Of a stretch of DNA of 58,694 nt, positions 4,729-16,026 are shown piece by piece (within the stretch, counting starts at the first letter, position 1; every line of letters starts with the position of its first letter). The notes beneath the pieces were generated by a model, which made no database searches, had not been told where the DNA came from, and worked only from the letters and a program-made list of their open reading frames with translations. The position numbers were made by a program, and so were the translations under genes. Source of the DNA: Candidatus Eiseniibacteriota bacterium (GTDB lineage Bacteria > Eisenbacteria > RBG-16-71-46 > CAIMUX01 > WJJG01). Where the stretch lies: contig JAGMBO010000083.1 of the NCBI GenBank assembly GCA_023129715.1, positions 1 to 58,694 on the forward strand, written 5' to 3'.

Positions 4729-4856
4729 GTGGAGTCTCCCTGACAGGTGCACTGGACTCGATTCTGAGGTAGATCTCGATTCTGACTCGGGTGGCTAGGA
4801 GAATGCTAGCAGAATGCTATTGACAAGGTTCTCGGGAGAGCCAGGAAGTATACGTG

Positions 4857-5108
4857 TCCATCCCGAGAATCCGTCCACCGCCCTAATCGTGGACTAGATC
4901 GGCCAGATCAACGCTGCTGTCGGGGCCGGGTTTTTCAGGAGGGCCGCGCCCTCGCCCCTCGCCCGTCTCGGGGGGGGCGAGGTGGGGGGGGCGAACGCGG
5001 GGCGGGAGGCATACCTGGTGCAGCGGGTGTCAAGCCCATCGATTCGGCTGATTCTCGGACCGGAGCAACTCCAGCGGTTGAAGGGCGATGCCGCTTTCGG
5101 GACCCACA
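4857..5108 (+). repeat. Dispersed repeat R1, copy 1 (about 250 bp)
   Basis: A composite intergenic repeat: a TCCATCCCGAGAATC start, a conserved stretch around CTAGATCGGCCAGATCAACG, a C-run/G-run block (CCCTCGCCCCTCGCCC then runs of up to eight G), and a tail around TTGAAGGGCGATG...CGGGACCCACA. It aligns over its whole length with 9315-9570. Partial copies lie at 6090-6180, 6578-6724 and 6952-6997. It is non-coding, and the G-runs could form a quadruplex. Confidence 0.8.
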
Positions 5109-5488
5109 ACTCTTGAAGCCTGATTGGCGGAGCATGCGACCGTTACCCACACGGGTACAGGTTCGTACTCGTCTCGGGGAGGTGAGGGGAGGTGGGGGCT
5201 CCGCAGGCGGCGTGAGTGGGTGACGGATGGGCCGGTGCCGGGGGCCGACGAACCCGCGCATATCCCGCACGGGGGCAGATAGTTGCGAGGGAGTGGGTCG
5301 GGTCGGGTTCTCTGGTCTCGGCTCTCGATTCGCAGTCAACGCCGCCAACCCACGGGTTCCTCGCCGGACCGCCCCAAGTTCTCCGCGCTCCCCGTTCTTA
5401 AGGCCGAAGTGGTTGACGCTCACCACCGTCTCGGGGGGTGAGGGGAGGGGGCGGGAGCTCGGGGCCGCAGCCTGAGAAGCTGAACGGC

Positions 5489-5674
5489 GTGGCGAACCAA
5501 GCCATGATGCTGGTATCCTGGTGTTGCTCGACTGCGGACCGGGAAGCTGAGATGTGAGGATCGTGGCGCAGTTGCTTCGGAGGCAAGCGGGACCTCTGAC
5601 AGCTCAGTGTGTGCGAACGCGCCCGCTAGACAACTCTAGGAACAACAGGCCGATCGAGTTCTCGGGATGTACAG
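5489..5674 (+). repeat. Dispersed repeat R2, copy 1 (no gene inside)
   Basis: The left part holds CCATGATGCTGGTATCCTGG (5503-5522). The right part holds GGCAAGCGGGA...GACAG, followed by CTAGACAACTC and a TCGGGATGTACAG tail. The same order and spacing occur at 9614-9798. The left part recurs at 13276-13310 and the right part at 14618-14667, on either side of a lipoprotein gene. The TATxCT within TGGTATxCTGG resembles an extended -10 box, so the left part may act as a promoter. Confidence 0.7.
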
Positions 5675-7386: not shown

Positions 7387-8508
7387 ATGACCCATCCACG
7401 TTATGAAACACTGCTCAGAACATTATTGGACCTTGCTGGAGTCGAAATAGACGGCAAGAACCCCTGGGATATCCAAGTGCACGACGAACGCTTCTACAAA
7501 CGTGCAATCTCGGAGGTGGAACTCGGTATCGGCGAATCGTACATGGACGGCTGGTGGGACGTCGGGAAAGTCGATGAGTTGGTCTTTCGTCTCGTAAGAG
7601 CGGACTTGCAGAGGAAAGTACGCCGGAATTGCAGAGTCGCCCTGCAGCTTGCCGGATTCTGGCTGACAAACATACAAGCGCGTCACCGGTCGTTTCAAGT
7701 CGGCCAAAGACACTATGACCTCGGCAACGAGCTTTTCCGCACTATGCTCGATCAGCGCATGAATTACAGTTGCGCCTATTGGAAAGACGCCGATACTCTC
7801 GACGAAGCACAGGAGAGCAAGCTCGAGCTGATTTGCAGGAAACTGGATCTCCAACCCGGAATGACAGTTCTCGATATCGGCTGCGGCTGGGGGGCCTTCG
7901 CTAAGTATGCCGCCGAGAAGTATGGTGTGCGAGTGGTAGGTATTACGGTATCCAAGGAGCAGATTGAACTCGGCCATGAACTTTGCAGAGGTTTACCCGT
8001 CGAATTCAGACTGACCGATTATAGGAATCTGAACGAGAAGTTCGATAGACTAGTCAGCGTAGGAATGATCGAGCACGTCGGCTACAGGAATTACAGGGAG
8101 TATTTCCAGATAGCTGCTAGATGCTTAGAGGACGATGGAATCCTCCTTCTTCAGACAATTGGTGAGATCCGTTCTGTAAGAAGCACCGATGCATGGACGC
8201 ACAAGTATATTTTTCCGAACGGGATGCTCCCTTCCATCGCCCAATTGAGTAAAGCCGTCGAGGGTCTATTCGTTATTGAGGACCTACATAATTTCGGCAG
8301 CGATTACGATAAGACGTTGATGGCGTGGTACAAGAACTTTGCCGAAGGCTGGGATCGAATTATACACGACTACGGCGAACGGTTTTGCAGGATGTGGGAG
8401 TACTTTCTCCTATCGAGTGCAGGTTCTTTCCGTGCAAGACATAATCAAGTGTGGCAGATTGTTCTTACGAAAAGCGGCTTGTTGGGGGGATATAGTTCAA
8501 TTAGGTAG
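7387..8508 (+). CDS. cfa: Cyclopropane-fatty-acyl-phospholipid synthase
   Basis: This enzyme transfers a methylene group from S-adenosylmethionine to double bonds of membrane phospholipid acyl chains at the inner membrane. The 373 residues align end to end with E. coli Cfa: LGIGESYMDGWW near residue 47, YDLGN at 110, NYSCAYWKDAD with C129, SAM motif VLDIGCGWG at 161-169, VSVGMIEHVG, YIFPNGMLPS, HNFGSDYDKTLMAWY, and a C-terminal FRARHNQVWQ. It is complete with no missing key residue. The DNA is distinctly less GC-rich than its neighbours and the protein is unusually close to the gammaproteobacterial type, so lateral transfer is likely. A transposase remnant follows directly downstream. It is a lone gene with its own ribosome-binding site. 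Confidence 0.96.
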   Translation: MTHPRYETLLRTLLDLAGVEIDGKNPWDIQVHDERFYKRAISEVELGIGESYMDGWWDVGKVDELVFRLVRADLQRKVRRNCRVALQLAGFWLTNIQARHRSFQVGQRHYDLGNELFRTMLDQRMNYSCAYWKDADTLDEAQESKLELICRKLDLQPGMTVLDIGCGWGAFAKYAAEKYGVRVVGITVSKEQIELGHELCRGLPVEFRLTDYRNLNEKFDRLVSVGMIEHVGYRNYREYFQIAARCLEDDGILLLQTIGEIRSVRSTDAWTHKYIFPNGMLPSIAQLSKAVEGLFVIEDLHNFGSDYDKTLMAWYKNFAEGWDRIIHDYGERFCRMWEYFLLSSAGSFRARHNQVWQIVLTKSGLLGGYSSIR

Positions 8509-8518
8509 CAGTGCGCGA

Positions 8519-8665
8519 GTTCGTTCTGATGTTCCGCGAAGCGGACGCGTGCATCAGCTGCATCGGAAGCTGCGTTGGCCGCGGGGTTTTGTGTGCCCGA
8601 GTTGTGACGCGATGGGGCAGGGGTGGCGGCAGAGGCGGGTGACCTAACCTGTCCGTCCCGAAAAA
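8519..8665 (+). pseudogene. Frameshifted N-terminus of an IS1595-type transposase
   Basis: Two adjacent frames together read FREADACISCI and then KLRWPRGFVCPSC, then WRQRR and LTCPSRK. This matches the N-terminal zinc ribbon of IS1595-family transposases (pattern F.DE.AC..YL..LRWP.GFVCP.C). At least one frameshift separates the first two pieces and a stop (TGACCTAA) follows, so the gene is dead. No DDE catalytic part or terminal repeats were recognised. Its position just after the low-GC cfa gene fits past mobile-element activity. Confidence 0.55.
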
Positions 8666-9314
8666 TCCATCCGTCGCTCTCGCGTGGGCTGGTGCGGCGA
8701 TGATCGCCGAGTTGCCGTGGCAGGCGCAGCCAAATAGGTTGGCTGGGGTGATGAGACGGGTGGGCGGTGGAGCTGTACCTGTCTGAGGTGGGGAGAGGTG
8801 TGGTCCGACTACGAAGACAGGGACCCGATGAGTGGGGCGTCGCGACTTCAGGCCGCAATGCGTTCGTAGTGATGGTGAAGACCGACAACCTCAGGAATCT
8901 CGATCACGGCCCCACGATGGACGGCGTGGGCTTCCCGAGGCTCGAGGCAGTGCATATCGAGGGCGTGACCGCCTTCCTGGTCTTCTGAGCCTGGCCCGCA
9001 TCCGCGGGCTCAACAATCAGCGCCTGCCTCTTCCCTCGACTCCAGAATGCCATGACGTCCCTCCATTCCCTCATCTTGTCCAGTTTCGGAATGGAGAACA
9101 TGTCAACCAATTGATCGGGGAAATCACGGACAGGATTAGTTAGACGCTACACTCGATCCTATCAGCACTGACGATCCCGTACAGCGTTTTATACCAGTGC
9201 TTCCCGGAAATCAAGACATGTCTGAGGACGGGCAGATGGAGAGGCATCGGCAACCGTAGTCCGCCAGAACTCCATCGCGTGATCTCCCGAGCCAGGTCAG
9301 GGGTCCATCGGGTG

Positions 9315-9570
9315 TCCGTCCCGAGAATCAGTCCGTCCGCCGCCCTAATCGTCGACTAGATCGGCCAGATCAACGCTGCTGTCGGGGCCGAGTTTTTCAC
9401 GAGGGCCGCGCCCTCGCCCGTCGCCCGTTTCGGGGGGGCGAGGGGGGGGAGGGGGAACTCGGGCGGAAACAACAGCGGGCACGCCGCCCACTCAAGTCCG
9501 TCCATCGCGCTGGTTCTCCGTCTGGCCCAACTCCGGTAGTTGAAGGGCGATGGAGTTCTTGGGACGGACA
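9315..9570 (+). repeat. Dispersed repeat R1, copy 2 (about 255 bp)
   Basis: Collinear with 4857-5108: TCCGTCCCGAGAATC head, CTAGATCGGCCAGATCAACG core, GTTTTTCACGAGGGCCGCGC, C-run/G-run block, and the TTGAAGGGCGATGGAG tail. It differs by scattered substitutions and small indels, so the copies are not recent duplicates. Confidence 0.8.
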
Positions 9571-9613
9571 GGATGCTCGGGATCGGAGGACTCCAGTGAT
9601 TGCGCAGAGCAGA

Positions 9614-9798
9614 GTGGCGAGCCAAGCCATGATGCTGGTATACTGGTATCCGCGAGAGTTAACGGGGATCGTGAGCCGAGAAGCTCGCGGAGCGGCTCCC
9701 CGATTGGCAAGTGAGAACTGTAACAGGCCATTCGCGGCTGTCGCTACTCCTAGACAACTTCCGGGATTGCAGGGCGATGGAGGTTTCGGGACCCACAG
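9614..9798 (+). repeat. Dispersed repeat R2, copy 2 (no gene inside)
   Basis: The left part is CCATGATGCTGGTATACTGG (9628-9647). The right part is TCGCGGAGCGGCTCCCCG, GGCAAGTGAGA and ACAGGCC, followed by CTAGACAACTTCC and a tail ending CGGGACCCACAG. The right part is about 66% identical to 14618-14667 downstream of the lipoprotein gene. Here the two halves lie only about 30 nt apart. Confidence 0.7.
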
Positions 9799-11140: not shown

Positions 11141-11815
11141 CCGCCATCCCCCTCCCGCACGCCTTCTGCGGGTAACACAATCGACGTCCGGTGCCAGAAA
11201 GGTGGCCCCACTGCGGCAAGGGCCGGCAGCAGGAGCTCCGGCACTCAGAGCGCACCCTCCGCCCTTCTCACAATTCCACGACTGCGAGGAGCATCGACGT
11301 CTTGCTGCCGAGACATCGAGGCAATGCCCCTCGCTCTACCTCATACGCAAGAACCAGCCCCCCTGGTTCGCACTTGTTCGATCCTCGCCCTAGTGTCCTA
11401 ACTCCCTGGAATCGGCCTAGGTCGTGAGCTGCACTCTCGGCCGCCGATCGGCCTATCCATCCCGAAAGGCGCGCCACGAAGGCGCTGAAAGGTCGGGTTG
11501 ACCGACTGACAGCAGCCATGCTGCATGGAAGATGGGGCTTGGCCCCCCGCCCCCCCGGGGACCGGGTTGCAGGATCAGTTCTCAGACCACCCGGTGCTAC
11601 GTGGGGATGAGATCCCGGGTGGTGAGCGGACCGGGAGAAGGCGGGGAAGACAGGAAGATCCTACGGGCCACGGCGCCAGTCCTCGACCTGACCAAGCCTT
11701 GACGCGCACTACGCATCCTACTAGGCTGAGAAGTACGAGACCGTACCCGATGTCACGACCGTCGGCGGTTACGCGATGTCGGCGAGGAATGGCGAGAGGG
11801 CCCTGGAGGTGTGCG
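11141..11815. other. Intergenic region and leader of the serpin gene
   Basis: No gene recognised. It holds an R1-head-like stretch (ATCCATCCCGAAAGGCGCGC, 11457-11476) that recurs on the other side of the serpin gene near 13160, and a set of mutually exclusive stems at 11561-11632, listed separately. Confidence 0.5.
11561..11632 (+). promoter_or_regulatory. Alternative stem-loops in the serpin leader (attenuator-like)
   Basis: Segment 1 (ACCGGGT, 11561-11567) can pair with segment 2 (ACCCGGT, 11589-11595). Segment 2 (ACCACCCGG, 11586-11594) can instead pair perfectly with segment 3 (CCGGGTGGT, 11615-11623). Segment 3 could also pair weakly with a fourth segment (ACCGGG, 11628-11633). This 1-2/2-3/3-4 layout resembles an attenuator about 190-250 nt before the start codon. 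No U-tract or leader peptide was seen, and high GC makes chance pairing plausible. Confidence 0.3.
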
Positions 11816-13069
11816 ATGCGCTTCAGTAGCACGAGCGTTCTGCTACTGGCCAGCCTGTCTGTGCTCCTGCTGACCGCTTGTGAAAGCGCTGATCCGGTGG
11901 GCAGCAAGAACAACGGCGGGGACGGCGTGGTGACGCCCGAAGCCTTTGCAGAGCGCGTGTCGGCCACCAACGAGTTGGCCTTCAATCTCTACCACCGCCT
12001 GGCCGGAGGTGACGACAACCTCATGGTGTCGCCCCACAGTATCGCGGTCGCCTTTGCCACGGTCTATGCGGGGGCCCGGAGTACCACGGAGGAGGAGATT
12101 GCCGAGGCCCTGTGCTTTCCTTGTCCGCAGGGTGGTTTCCACAGCGCCATGCAGGCTTTGAACGACAGCCTGACGAGCCGCGGTCGCGATCAGGGCGCCG
12201 ACGTTTTCAAACTCAACATTGCCAACAGCTGCTGGGGGGATGAGGACTGGCATTATGAGCAGGCCTATCTGGACACGCTGGCGCGATTCTATGGCGCGCC
12301 GATGCGTCTCGTTGATCTAGCCGGTCAGCCCGAACAGGCTCGCCTGGCGATCAATCAGTGGATGGCCGATCAGACCGAGGACCGCGTGCCGGAGCTGATT
12401 CCCCCAGGCGCTCTCTGCGGTGGAAGCTATCTCGTGCTGGCCAACGCCATCTACTTCCGTGCTTGCTGGCTGAAGCAGTTCAAAACCGAGTACACGCACG
12501 ACGAAGGCTTCATGCTGCTGGACGGCACCACAATTCAGGTGCCGACCATGACGGGCATGGACGAATTCGACTACTGCAGCGGCGACGGGTATCGCGCGGT
12601 GGACTTGGCCTATGTCGGCGAGCAGGTGTCCATGTTGGCCGTCCTGCCCGACTCCGGGCAATTCGCAGCCTTCGAGGCCGGGTTCGACGAAGCTCGTCTG
12701 GAAGAGATCCAGGCTCAGCTCGTACCAACCGACATCTTCATCCAACTGCCGCGCTTTTCCTTTGAGACGCCGCTTGATCTCAAAGAGACGCTGACGGCGA
12801 TGGGAATGACGGAAGCCTTCGGCGTGGGGGCCGATTTCACAGGCATGGATGGCACCGACGACGGAATGCCCTGGATCAACGGAGTGTGGCACCGGACCTT
12901 CATCTCGGTTGACGAGTACGGGACCGAAGCCGCTGCCGGCACCGGCATCGAAATGTACCTTTCGATCATGCCCTACTTCTCTGCCGACCGGCCCTTCCTG
13001 TTCGTCATTTGCGACCGTCCGACAGGCACGGTTCTTTTCATGGGGCGAGTCCTCGATCCGCGAGGGTAG
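11816..13069 (+). CDS. Lipoprotein serpin (serine protease inhibitor family)
   Basis: A 417-residue serpin with a lipoprotein signal (hydrophobic segment, then LTAC with Cys22). The serpin fold signatures are present: NLMVSPHSIAVAFATVYAGA near residue 75, LANAIYF, the FISVDEYGTEAAAGTG hinge at about 362-377, and the DRPFLFVI and GTVLFMGRVLDP C-terminus. The small-residue hinge is of the inhibitory type. By counting from the hinge, the scissile bond should lie near YLSIM, which would suit chymotrypsin- or elastase-like proteases rather than trypsin-like ones (inference). An insert with CFPC occurs near residue 100. ATG at 11816 follows GGAGGT by 5 nt; upstream in-frame starts have no such site. 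It probably sits on the envelope and protects against secreted proteases. Confidence 0.95.
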   Translation: MRFSSTSVLLLASLSVLLLTACESADPVGSKNNGGDGVVTPEAFAERVSATNELAFNLYHRLAGGDDNLMVSPHSIAVAFATVYAGARSTTEEEIAEALCFPCPQGGFHSAMQALNDSLTSRGRDQGADVFKLNIANSCWGDEDWHYEQAYLDTLARFYGAPMRLVDLAGQPEQARLAINQWMADQTEDRVPELIPPGALCGGSYLVLANAIYFRACWLKQFKTEYTHDEGFMLLDGTTIQVPTMTGMDEFDYCSGDGYRAVDLAYVGEQVSMLAVLPDSGQFAAFEAGFDEARLEEIQAQLVPTDIFIQLPRFSFETPLDLKETLTAMGMTEAFGVGADFTGMDGTDDGMPWINGVWHRTFISVDEYGTEAAAGTGIEMYLSIMPYFSADRPFLFVICDRPTGTVLFMGRVLDPRG

Positions 13070-13275
13070 CAGAGGCGCTCAACACTGTCCTTGGCCGAGA
13101 GGTCGTCCACCCCGCGGAGAGGGCCGAAGGAGCGGGCAATTGGATATCCATCCCAGTGACCGTCCCTCCCGAAAAGCGCGCCACGGTGGAAGCTTCCATC
13201 CGACACAGCCTTGCCCGCAGCGTCCCTTTTCCTTGTCCAATTCAGAATCCCGGGTCAATTGCTGAACAGCAGAGA

Positions 13276-13310
13276 GTGGCGGGCAACACCATGATGCTGG
13301 TATTCTGGTG
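13276..13310 (+). repeat. Left half of repeat R2 upstream of the lipoprotein gene
   Basis: Contains CACCATGATGCTGGTATTCT and matches the left halves at 5489-5523 and 9614-9648. It ends about 50 nt before the lipoprotein start codon, so its TGGTATTCTGG could be the -10 region of that gene. Confidence 0.7.
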
Positions 13311-13360
13311 CTGACCGACGCTTGACCAGGTGCACGGGCTCAGAGAGTGTGGAGGGACAC

Positions 13361-14617
13361 ATGCGAATCCCTAAGGGTTTCTGCGCCATCGGTCTCGCGT
13401 TGCTGATCTTCTCGATCTCGGCGTGCGATGACGACTCAGGCCCGACCCCGGACACATCCCCACCGGCAGCGGTGACGGATCTTTGCGTCACGGCGACGTC
13501 CGACTCCTCGGCAGTCCTGGCATGGACTGCCCCTGGAGACAATGGTATGGACGGGCAGGCATCTACGTATGATATTCGATACTCGACGGACAGCGATTCC
13601 CTGGCAGCCTGGGCGGACACGTCCATGGTCGTCGTCTCAGTCCCCAATGCGCCGCCGCCCAGTTCTCCGGGCAGCACAGACACAGTCAGGATCAGCGGCC
13701 TCACGCCGATTACCTCATACTACTTCGCCTTGAAGACAGCCGATGAGGCCTCGAACTACTCGGATCTCTCCAACATTGCCGACACCTTGACGACAGGAAA
13801 CAGGCCGCCCACTGCTTGCATTGGCGCCGATCCTACGACTGGGGCCTATGGAACCCCCATTACGTTCGATGCTGCCTGCACGAACGATCCGGACGATCCG
13901 TTTGGCAGTCTGTTCTTCCAATGGGACTGGCAGGGGGATGGGACTTTCGACGCCGAGGCAACCGGAGACCCCAACGCTGTTCATCAGTTTTCTGAGCCCG
14001 GATCACACCAGGTTATCCTCCGCGTCACAGATCCTCATGGCGCTAGTGACACCGATTCCGTGGAGATCTATCAGTCTCCCTTTGCGCTACGCGACTCACC
14101 TGAGAACGTCATGCACAACCTCAAGATGGCATATGCTGAGCGGGCTGTCGCCGAGTACGAGAGCCTGCTGGCGATTGATTTCACCTTCTTGCTCTGCCAA
14201 GAGGATGCCTCCCAACCCGGGATGCCCGACTTCTGGGGGCAACAGGACGAGATCGGGATCCACATGAACATGTTCGACTCCGACCGCGTGCAGACCCTGA
14301 CGCTGAGCTTCGATTCCTGGGACCGCGTCTTCGATCCGACCGATGGTCTCTGGACGATCACGATCATCAATGTGCGGCTGCGCCTCTATGGAGAGACACC
14401 GGGGAACGAGGGTGAGGGGCCCGAGGAATACAAGGTCGACAGAGGAACCTCTAAGTTCTGGTTCCGCGAGAATGATTGGACAGAACCCGGCACAGAATCG
14501 AACGTATGGACGATTGTCAAGTGGGAGGATGAGCCCATTGGCACATCGCTTCTTGTGCATGAAGGACGTCCATCACAGTTTACGAGCTGGGGAGCTGTGA
14601 AGAACATGTTCAGGTAA
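13361..14617 (+). CDS. Lipoprotein with FN3 and PKD domains
   Basis: A 418-residue exported lipoprotein: signal with ISAC lipobox (Cys22), a fibronectin type III domain at about 33-135 (PAAVTDLCV...TSYYFALKTADEASNYSDLSN), a PKD domain at about 145-235 (GTPITFDA...FQWDWQGDGTFD...HQVILRVTD), and a C-terminal region of about 180 residues (ENVMHNLKMAYAER...YESLLAIDFTFL) that I do not recognise by name. The last part resembles conserved C-terminal regions seen in FCB lipoproteins. ATG at 13361 follows GGAGGG. The gene is bracketed by the left (13276) and right (14618) halves of repeat R2. Its role is unknown; a surface adhesion or ligand-binding protein is plausible. Confidence 0.85.
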   Translation: MRIPKGFCAIGLALLIFSISACDDDSGPTPDTSPPAAVTDLCVTATSDSSAVLAWTAPGDNGMDGQASTYDIRYSTDSDSLAAWADTSMVVVSVPNAPPPSSPGSTDTVRISGLTPITSYYFALKTADEASNYSDLSNIADTLTTGNRPPTACIGADPTTGAYGTPITFDAACTNDPDDPFGSLFFQWDWQGDGTFDAEATGDPNAVHQFSEPGSHQVILRVTDPHGASDTDSVEIYQSPFALRDSPENVMHNLKMAYAERAVAEYESLLAIDFTFLLCQEDASQPGMPDFWGQQDEIGIHMNMFDSDRVQTLTLSFDSWDRVFDPTDGLWTITIINVRLRLYGETPGNEGEGPEEYKVDRGTSKFWFRENDWTEPGTESNVWTIVKWEDEPIGTSLLVHEGRPSQFTSWGAVKNMFR

Positions 14618-14667
14618 GAATCGCGGAGTGGTTCCCCGGCGGGCAAGTGGGATTCTCGACAGGCCGT
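14618..14667 (+). repeat. Right half of repeat R2 downstream of the lipoprotein gene
   Basis: TCGCGGAGTGGTTCCCCG, GGCAAGTGGGA and GACAGGCC match the right half of R2 at 9682-9733 (about 66% over 50 nt) and 5553-5602 (about 62%). It begins directly at the stop codon of the lipoprotein gene. Confidence 0.65.
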
Positions 14668-14730
14668 TCCCGCAGACCCCCTTGCGGCCCGCGTCAGCCA
14701 ATGCCCTGGTGGAGATCCAAGCGCAGGGAA

Positions 14731-16026
14731 TCACTTGCTCGAGGCGAGAGCCACCACCGAGACGATCACTGCCACCACGGTGCCCAGGGGGGTCAGCAGG
14801 CTGGCGATCTTGTGGGATCGGCGTTCCGGCACCCAAATGCGCTCGCCCGCCAGCAGCGTGTCGGTGGGCGCCAGCGGGATCTCCGCACCCTGGGCATCGA
14901 AGCGCTTCCAGTCCTTGCTGCGTCCGATCGCACTCGGGCCTCCCGCGAGGAAGACGTAGTCGGCGGCGCGCTGTCCCGGCAGGAAGGGATAGACGCCCGG
15001 GCGGCCAACGGCTCCGCCGACGGCAATCCAATCGTGGCAGAAGGGAATCTCGATGACATCGGCGGCTGCCAGGGCCGTCTCTGGGAGATCCTTCCGCGCG
15101 ACCCACCGCCGCGCCTCCCCCGGGCGCAACAGCCAGACCCCGAGATCACACGTCTGGTCTCCCGGCCAGCCGGACGCCCGCAGGGCGAAATCGAGCCGGT
15201 CGCCGGTGCGGAAGGGGATCAATCGGCTCTCTGTCTGGAATGGCCGGTCGAGCAGGCGGCCGGCGGTCGCGGCGCCGCCGTCGGGGGCGAAGACCCCTCG
15301 CACGCGGAAGCCGGCGCGAGTCGCGGGAACATGGATGTGGTCTCCAATGTGCAGGCGAGGATTCCCATCGATGCGTCCATCGACGAGCCAGGCCAGCACG
15401 TCGTGGCATGTCGTCTCCCCGGAGCGGCGCAGCTCGACATGGCGCGCATCCGCGCTCGCGAGAAATCCCCCCGCGCGGGCGATCCAATCGCAGAGTCGGG
15501 ATGTCGCCGGGAGCGTGTGGCTGCCTGGGGAGGCGACCTGCCCGGTGACCGGGATGCGCAAGAGGCCCGGGCGGACCAGGGCAAGCGAGATCGAGGAGTG
15601 CGGGTAGGCCTCCGCGGCGGCCGCCGCCAGGGTCGTCCGCGCCTCGGCGAGCGTCGCCTTCCCGACGGATACGGCTCCGATCGAGGGGACCACCAGCATG
15701 CCGTCGGCGGTAACCCGCAACGCCAGGGTCAGGTCGACCGCGCCCCCGATCGAGAGGATCAGCTCGTCGCCCGGCGCTAGCCGGTAGCTCCGCGGGTCGA
15801 CCAGCTCGCTCAGCCCGACCTCGTCACGGTTCGGCCCCCATGCTGCGGTCTTGCTCTGGTCCTCACCGACATGGAGGCGAGGGCTGGAATGCGGCGGTTG
15901 AGCGTAGATGGATTGGGCGGCGCAGGGTCGGGCGAAGCCCCCGCAGACGGCCCAGAAGAAGGCGATGCCGATGATCGTCGCCGGGCCCCGGCATCGCCGG
16001 GCCAGATCGTTGACGGCTGCGCGCAT
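14731..16026 (-). CDS. Polysaccharide export protein with SLBB domains (Wza-like)
   Basis: An outer-membrane/periplasmic export channel component of about 431 residues. It has a signal peptide (FFWAVCGGFARPCAAQ), the Poly_export motif YRLAPGDELILSIGG near residue 80, VTADGMLVVPSIGAVSVGKATLAEA, then SLBB-type folds (IPVTGQVASPGSHTLPA... and VGGAVGRPGVYPFLPGQRAADYVFLAGG), and a C-terminal hydrophobic helix (LGTVVAVIVSVVAL). ATG at 16026 has AAAGG 6 nt upstream; an ATG two codons earlier (16032) is also possible. No glycosyltransferases, Wzc kinase or polymerase lie nearby, so it is an orphan member. It is in the same direction as the hybrid kinase upstream, 281 nt away. Confidence 0.9.
   Translation of the reverse strand: MRAAVNDLARRCRGPATIIGIAFFWAVCGGFARPCAAQSIYAQPPHSSPRLHVGEDQSKTAAWGPNRDEVGLSELVDPRSYRLAPGDELILSIGGAVDLTLALRVTADGMLVVPSIGAVSVGKATLAEARTTLAAAAAEAYPHSSISLALVRPGLLRIPVTGQVASPGSHTLPATSRLCDWIARAGGFLASADARHVELRRSGETTCHDVLAWLVDGRIDGNPRLHIGDHIHVPATRAGFRVRGVFAPDGGAATAGRLLDRPFQTESRLIPFRTGDRLDFALRASGWPGDQTCDLGVWLLRPGEARRWVARKDLPETALAAADVIEIPFCHDWIAVGGAVGRPGVYPFLPGQRAADYVFLAGGPSAIGRSKDWKRFDAQGAEIPLAPTDTLLAGERIWVPERRSHKIASLLTPLGTVVAVIVSVVALASSK

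Follow-up and report, generated by a model that had tools for sequence, protein, structure and literature searches.

A duplicated lipoprotein gene between insertion sequence fragments in a Candidatus Eiseniibacteriota genome

Introduction

Mobile insertion cassettes (MICs), such as MIC231 and mic-qnrD, hold a gene unrelated to transposition among sequence derived from an insertion sequence (IS). In the published description, two inverted repeats enclose an MIC and a target duplication is usually present (PMC3913671). Transporter ISs and passenger-gene ISs likewise combine an IS with an unrelated gene, and the genes of passenger-gene ISs travel with the element. Partial IS copies have been presented as scars of ancestral recombination (PMC3129680).

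We analyzed a stretch of 58,694 nucleotides from a Candidatus Eiseniibacteriota bacterium (assembly GCA_023129715.1, contig JAGMBO010000083.1, positions 1 to 58,694; hereafter the window). An initial annotation, made from the letters alone, had placed a lipoprotein gene between the halves of a repeat, R2, and proposed either that the gene was gained within the repeat or that precise gene losses had left promoter plus terminator scars elsewhere. The locus is like MICs, transporter ISs and passenger-gene ISs in combining IS-derived sequence with an unrelated gene. It is unlike MICs in that inverted repeats were not found around the lipoprotein gene, and unlike passenger-gene ISs in that the relic appears interrupted and no second copy shares its junctions. 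Here, we describe the origin of R2, the structure of its interrupted copy and the explanations that compete for it.

Results

R2 is, with near certainty, debris of an IS 5' end in - strand orientation. On that strand it comprises the left terminal repeat, the leader and the start of a DDE (rve_3) transposase, whose first codons lie at the 'CATGATG...' core. With the second copy in the window as query, further copies were recovered on other contigs of the same genome (contigs are denoted by C and relatives by G), where the repeat runs unbroken, on the opposite strand, into an ORF starting MACLAILFRILSETFRSRASLQIENLALRHQLAVLRR. Downstream of the leader on C31, the ORF encodes 341 aa and matches Pfam rve_3 (PF13683, E 3.7e-15); the apparently intact element on this contig (C31:13625-15017, 1393 bp) lies between terminal repeats that resemble each other. 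Because R2 is continuous with the transposase ORF, the motif 'CATGATGCTGGTATCCTGG' pointed out in the initial annotation can be read, by eye, as the antisense of the transposase start codon and the preceding AGGA-type ribosome site. The single rve_3 transposase ORF, the length of 1.39 kb, the TG-starting terminal inverted repeats, the many decayed copies and the MITE-like derivatives are all like those of IS3/IS481-type elements, but the C31 transposase scored only 85.1 bits against the NCBIfam IS3 family (cut-off 160) and 84.7 bits against IS481 (cut-off 224). Since both scores fall below their cut-offs, we describe the element as IS3/IS481-like with a DDE transposase, as its sequence suggests, and leave the exact family name open. 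The left-terminus pattern had 39 matches genome-wide (reversed control: 0), and the genome contained 33 transposase matches, mostly fragments. A related copy, its protein 77% identical, was present in the family relative G004 and in a record named Candidatus Eisenbacteria, and the leader was conserved in other genera (G001 and G004). RNA folding of four stretches was not convincingly above shuffles (z from -1.79 to +1.07), and an Rfam scan of window positions 1-30000 returned no match at R2.

Copies 1 and 2 are uninterrupted. Copy 1 (5447-5673, - strand) contains the IS left terminus, the leader and the first transposase codons and is truncated beyond them. Copy 2 (9571-9797, - strand) contains the left terminus, the leader and about 20 transposase codons, and is part of a decayed IS (8650-9797, - strand) with its right terminus at 8650 and a relic of the transposase C-terminus at 8851-8964. 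The halves of R2 had been noted as lying about 30 nt apart in both copies; those ~30 nt are the continuous middle of one element. Nested in the decayed IS is a 258-bp MITE-like element (9313-9570, no strand assigned) with the ends TGTCCGTCCCGAGAA and TTCTTGGGACGGACA. This element and another at 4855-5108 have IS-terminus-like ends and are 89% identical over 132 nt. R1-like termini were located at 5066, 5631, 6953, 9528 and 9755. R1, the repeat next to R2, has terminus-like sequence and on that ground would be debris of the same IS family, which also accounts for most of the flanking repeats recorded in this region. A G-rich stretch resembling CCGTCTCGGGGGGGGCGAGG recurs at 4963, 5426, 6105, 6593 and 9424, at least two of these within MITE-like elements. 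Upstream of a serpin-like lipoprotein gene, the sequence matches the Rfam group-II-D1D4-2 intron (11533-11655, + strand, 50.5 bits with gathering at 36, E 1.4e-7).

Copy 3 is split by the lipoprotein gene. The 20-nt core CATGATGCTGGTATNCTGGT has exactly three exact occurrences in the window, at 5503, 9628 and 13290 (0.02 expected from shuffles). A mapping model, built from five copies that all lie outside the window, placed the left half at 13348-13259 (- strand, model positions 113-197) and the right half at 14671-14617 (- strand, model positions 63-117). The left half (13259-13348) corresponds to the second half of the IS leader plus about 10 transposase codons (IS about 112-201), and the right half (14617-14671) to the first half of the leader, the portion nearer the left terminus (IS about 63-117). 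A single-sequence search with the C31 element assigned IS 112-195 to the left half and IS 66 onward to the right half. Alignments against six reference copies outperformed dinucleotide shuffles in most cases, as the initial annotation had proposed to check: for the left half (13250-13360), 0/1000 shuffles were as good against five of the six references, with the sixth (C38) at chance level (520/1000), and for the right half (14600-14720), 0/1000 were as good against four of the six, with 14 and 4 of 1000 for the other two. The picture of a complete gene enclosed by two halves of a repeat that is elsewhere uninterrupted is thereby confirmed. The gene and the three repeat copies lie where they had been annotated, and the right half does start at the stop codon (14617 onward). 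The left half, annotated at 13276-13310, was correctly located but is longer; it reaches to just upstream of the Shine-Dalgarno, in agreement with the likeness to the gene's 5' leader that had been suspected.

The interrupting segment (13348-14616, + strand, about 1.27 kb) is built around a single ORF and holds a Shine-Dalgarno-like GGAGGG (by eye), the ORF for a lipoprotein of 418 aa and little more. When both flanks were joined, the alignment to the IS spanned the junction with 2 extra nt and reached 72 bits, versus 30.5 and 27.1 bits for the separate halves. With regard to a target-site duplication, the only overlap seen was one of 2-5 nt at the edges of the insert itself. The outer edges of the IS relic lack definable limits, and beyond 13259 on the left and about 14671 on the right IS similarity does not exceed chance. 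A segment of another contig (C185:4467-4562) matches window positions 13186-13283 at 75%, a stretch that adjoins the left half from outside and overlaps its edge.

The lipoprotein CDS (13361-14617, + strand) encodes fn3 and PKD domains and a lipobox, ISAC, recognized by eye. It has a paralogue with 81% amino acid identity (C38:6095-7351) and a partial paralogue on C126. Nucleotide similarity to the C38 paralogue covers 13349-14539, starting at the insert edge. The gene is a duplicate, and a dN/dS of 0.24 against the C38 paralogue (418 codons) indicates that it is under purifying selection. Its last 23 codons have strongly diverged from the paralogue (dN 0.62 versus 0.07-0.17 elsewhere), and similarity to both C38 and C126 ends at 14538-14539. 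We rejected an IS origin of this C-terminal tail, as positions 14540-14616 compared with five leaders at chance level despite a weak nhmmer extension into the gene. On C38, the stop codon of the paralogue nearly coincides with the start of an IS 5' end that extends to a left terminus at 7561. The gene-IS junction there differs from that of the window gene, and the DNA upstream of the two genes is unrelated.

The census of R2 in the own genome used a sequence-only model and admitted matches with E up to 1; in 12 relatives the limit was E up to 0.05. In each genome 150 first-look candidates were scored, a limit that weak split copies may escape. The junction was taken as about positions 39-44 of the R2 model, and crossing as about 5 positions or more on either side. 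The own genome gave 22 matches: both halves of copy 3 and 20 others, 17 of which cross the junction uninterrupted, while the remaining three either start just before it (C172) or fall short (C184, C46). At E up to 1e-4 there were 15 matches, including 14 other copies, all of which cross (14/14). A later search identified an internal deletion across the junction region in C112. Five of the 12 relatives contributed eight matches, seven crossing the junction and one, G003:C417, with an internal deletion that joins IS 1-117 to IS 981. Right deletion endpoints lie close together in this copy and in C156 (IS 981 and 973), internally deleted copies from two genera. In C25 and C130, the IS is retained from position 1 to about 120-132 only and gives way to other DNA; after the first about 120 nt of the IS the two contigs share a non-IS sequence and stop at an identical point. 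They probably represent a different kind of element that has this left end in common with the IS and was broken by assembly. Like C38, they are short contigs that terminate in or close to IS sequence. The initial annotation had raised the prospect of other R2 copies enclosing different genes, but no other copy encloses a gene among the 20 own-genome matches and the eight in relatives (150 candidates scored per genome), which gives no indication of a repeated gene-cassette system.

At the 3' flank of the SLBB gene, no lipoprotein match was found in the three readable family relatives (G001, G003, and G004). The serpin-SLBB synteny is not kept in relatives: G003 has both genes adjacent but divergent, and the G002 contig is short. 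For this reason, no orthologous empty site was readable among the family relatives, all of which belong to other genera.

Discussion

Our preferred reading is that R2 is an IS 5' end and that copy 3 is one relic interrupted by a segment with a duplicated gene. We assign this statement as a whole a probability of about 0.55, and hold its central step, a single insertion into a single relic, to be likewise somewhat better than an even bet. The leader of one IS relic would have been interrupted near IS position 112-117 by an incoming segment of about 1.27 kb, which brought the duplicated lipoprotein gene together with that gene's Shine-Dalgarno and stop codon. Entry would have occurred by illegitimate recombination with a 2-5 nt overlap at the junctions, presumably with no dedicated cassette or transposition system involved; the relic would have no role evident from its sequence, and the gene would be kept by selection. 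A single insertion is favoured because the two halves are complementary in IS coordinates and their joined alignment runs through the junction, because most other copies in the genome cross it without an insert, because similarity to the C38 paralogue starts at 13349, the insert edge, and because the readable relatives have no lipoprotein match at the SLBB 3' flank. It is weakened by the recurrence of breaks near IS 117-122 (G003:C417, C25, and C130), by the chance-level IS similarity beyond the outer edges, and by the paralogue, whose gene also abuts an IS end, which is unexpected for random insertion. Ranking both halves against 11 other copies gave a Spearman correlation of 0.52, versus a mean of 0.65 for artificial chimeras, and does not indicate an origin from one copy. 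As between the two options of the initial annotation, gain of the gene within the repeat is favoured as the better supported, given that the uninterrupted state is general and continuous with the transposase gene; precise gene losses are not supported.

The same recurrence of breaks near position 117, together with a ranking that fails to show a single source copy, makes a serious rival of two independent fragments of one IS family that flank a pre-existing gene and end near IS 113 upstream and IS 117 downstream. We regard this as possible, though clearly the less probable account. The window is dense in IS debris, fragment ends near IS 117-122 are known from other copies, and the stop codon of the C38 paralogue is followed immediately by an IS 5' end, with a different junction. 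However, two fragments would need to share one orientation and to have ends complementary within about 5 nt, and each half is 80% identical to C31 over its best pieces, as expected of one relic. It is quite improbable that the lipoprotein is instead the passenger of a non-autonomous IS derivative (a mobile insertion cassette) that the transposase mobilizes in trans. The genome does have an apparently intact transposase, and each paralogue adjoins a left end of this IS family, the two being oriented alike relative to it, but their gene-IS junctions differ, no other copy contains a gene, copy 3 is not bracketed by inverted repeats and the region upstream of the C38 gene lacks a right terminus. 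When the flanks of copy 3 and the DNA preceding the C38 gene were compared with the IS ends, scores stayed at chance, the best being 27/300 shuffles (13100-13259, one right end). A candidate right terminus at 13161, a pattern match, was discarded, as its support was no better than these 27/300 shuffles.

We consider it scarcely credible that the halves serve the gene as promoter and terminator and that the uninterrupted copies are gene-loss scars. The left half stops directly ahead of the Shine-Dalgarno and the stop codon marks the start of the right half, as such a reading would have it, yet the same sequence forms the transposase leader and start in intact and truncated IS copies, and the upstream DNA of the paralogue is unrelated. 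The 'promoter plus terminator scars' of the initial annotation are contradicted by the left half, which is the antisense of the transposase start region, and by a search of 13060-14800 that found neither a promoter of the sigma-70-like type, the only type covered, nor a terminator.

R2 is ordinary transposon debris, neither a gene cassette nor a regulatory element, and a would-be regulatory repeat or cassette is thereby removed from consideration. Since the ORF edges of both close paralogues adjoin one and the same IS end, with matching gene-to-IS orientation, one might suppose that ends of this IS family repeatedly pick up or duplicate neighbouring genes, an IS-assisted copying of single ORFs without a classical cassette. 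We think this unlikely, but the fact that both members of the lipoprotein pair lie at this IS end is the one feature that deserves a later look. For this Eisenbacteria-like genome, R2 and, by its terminus-like sequence, probably R1 are debris of one IS family, and copy 3 would provide a small example of a duplicated gene that settled inside a dead transposon.
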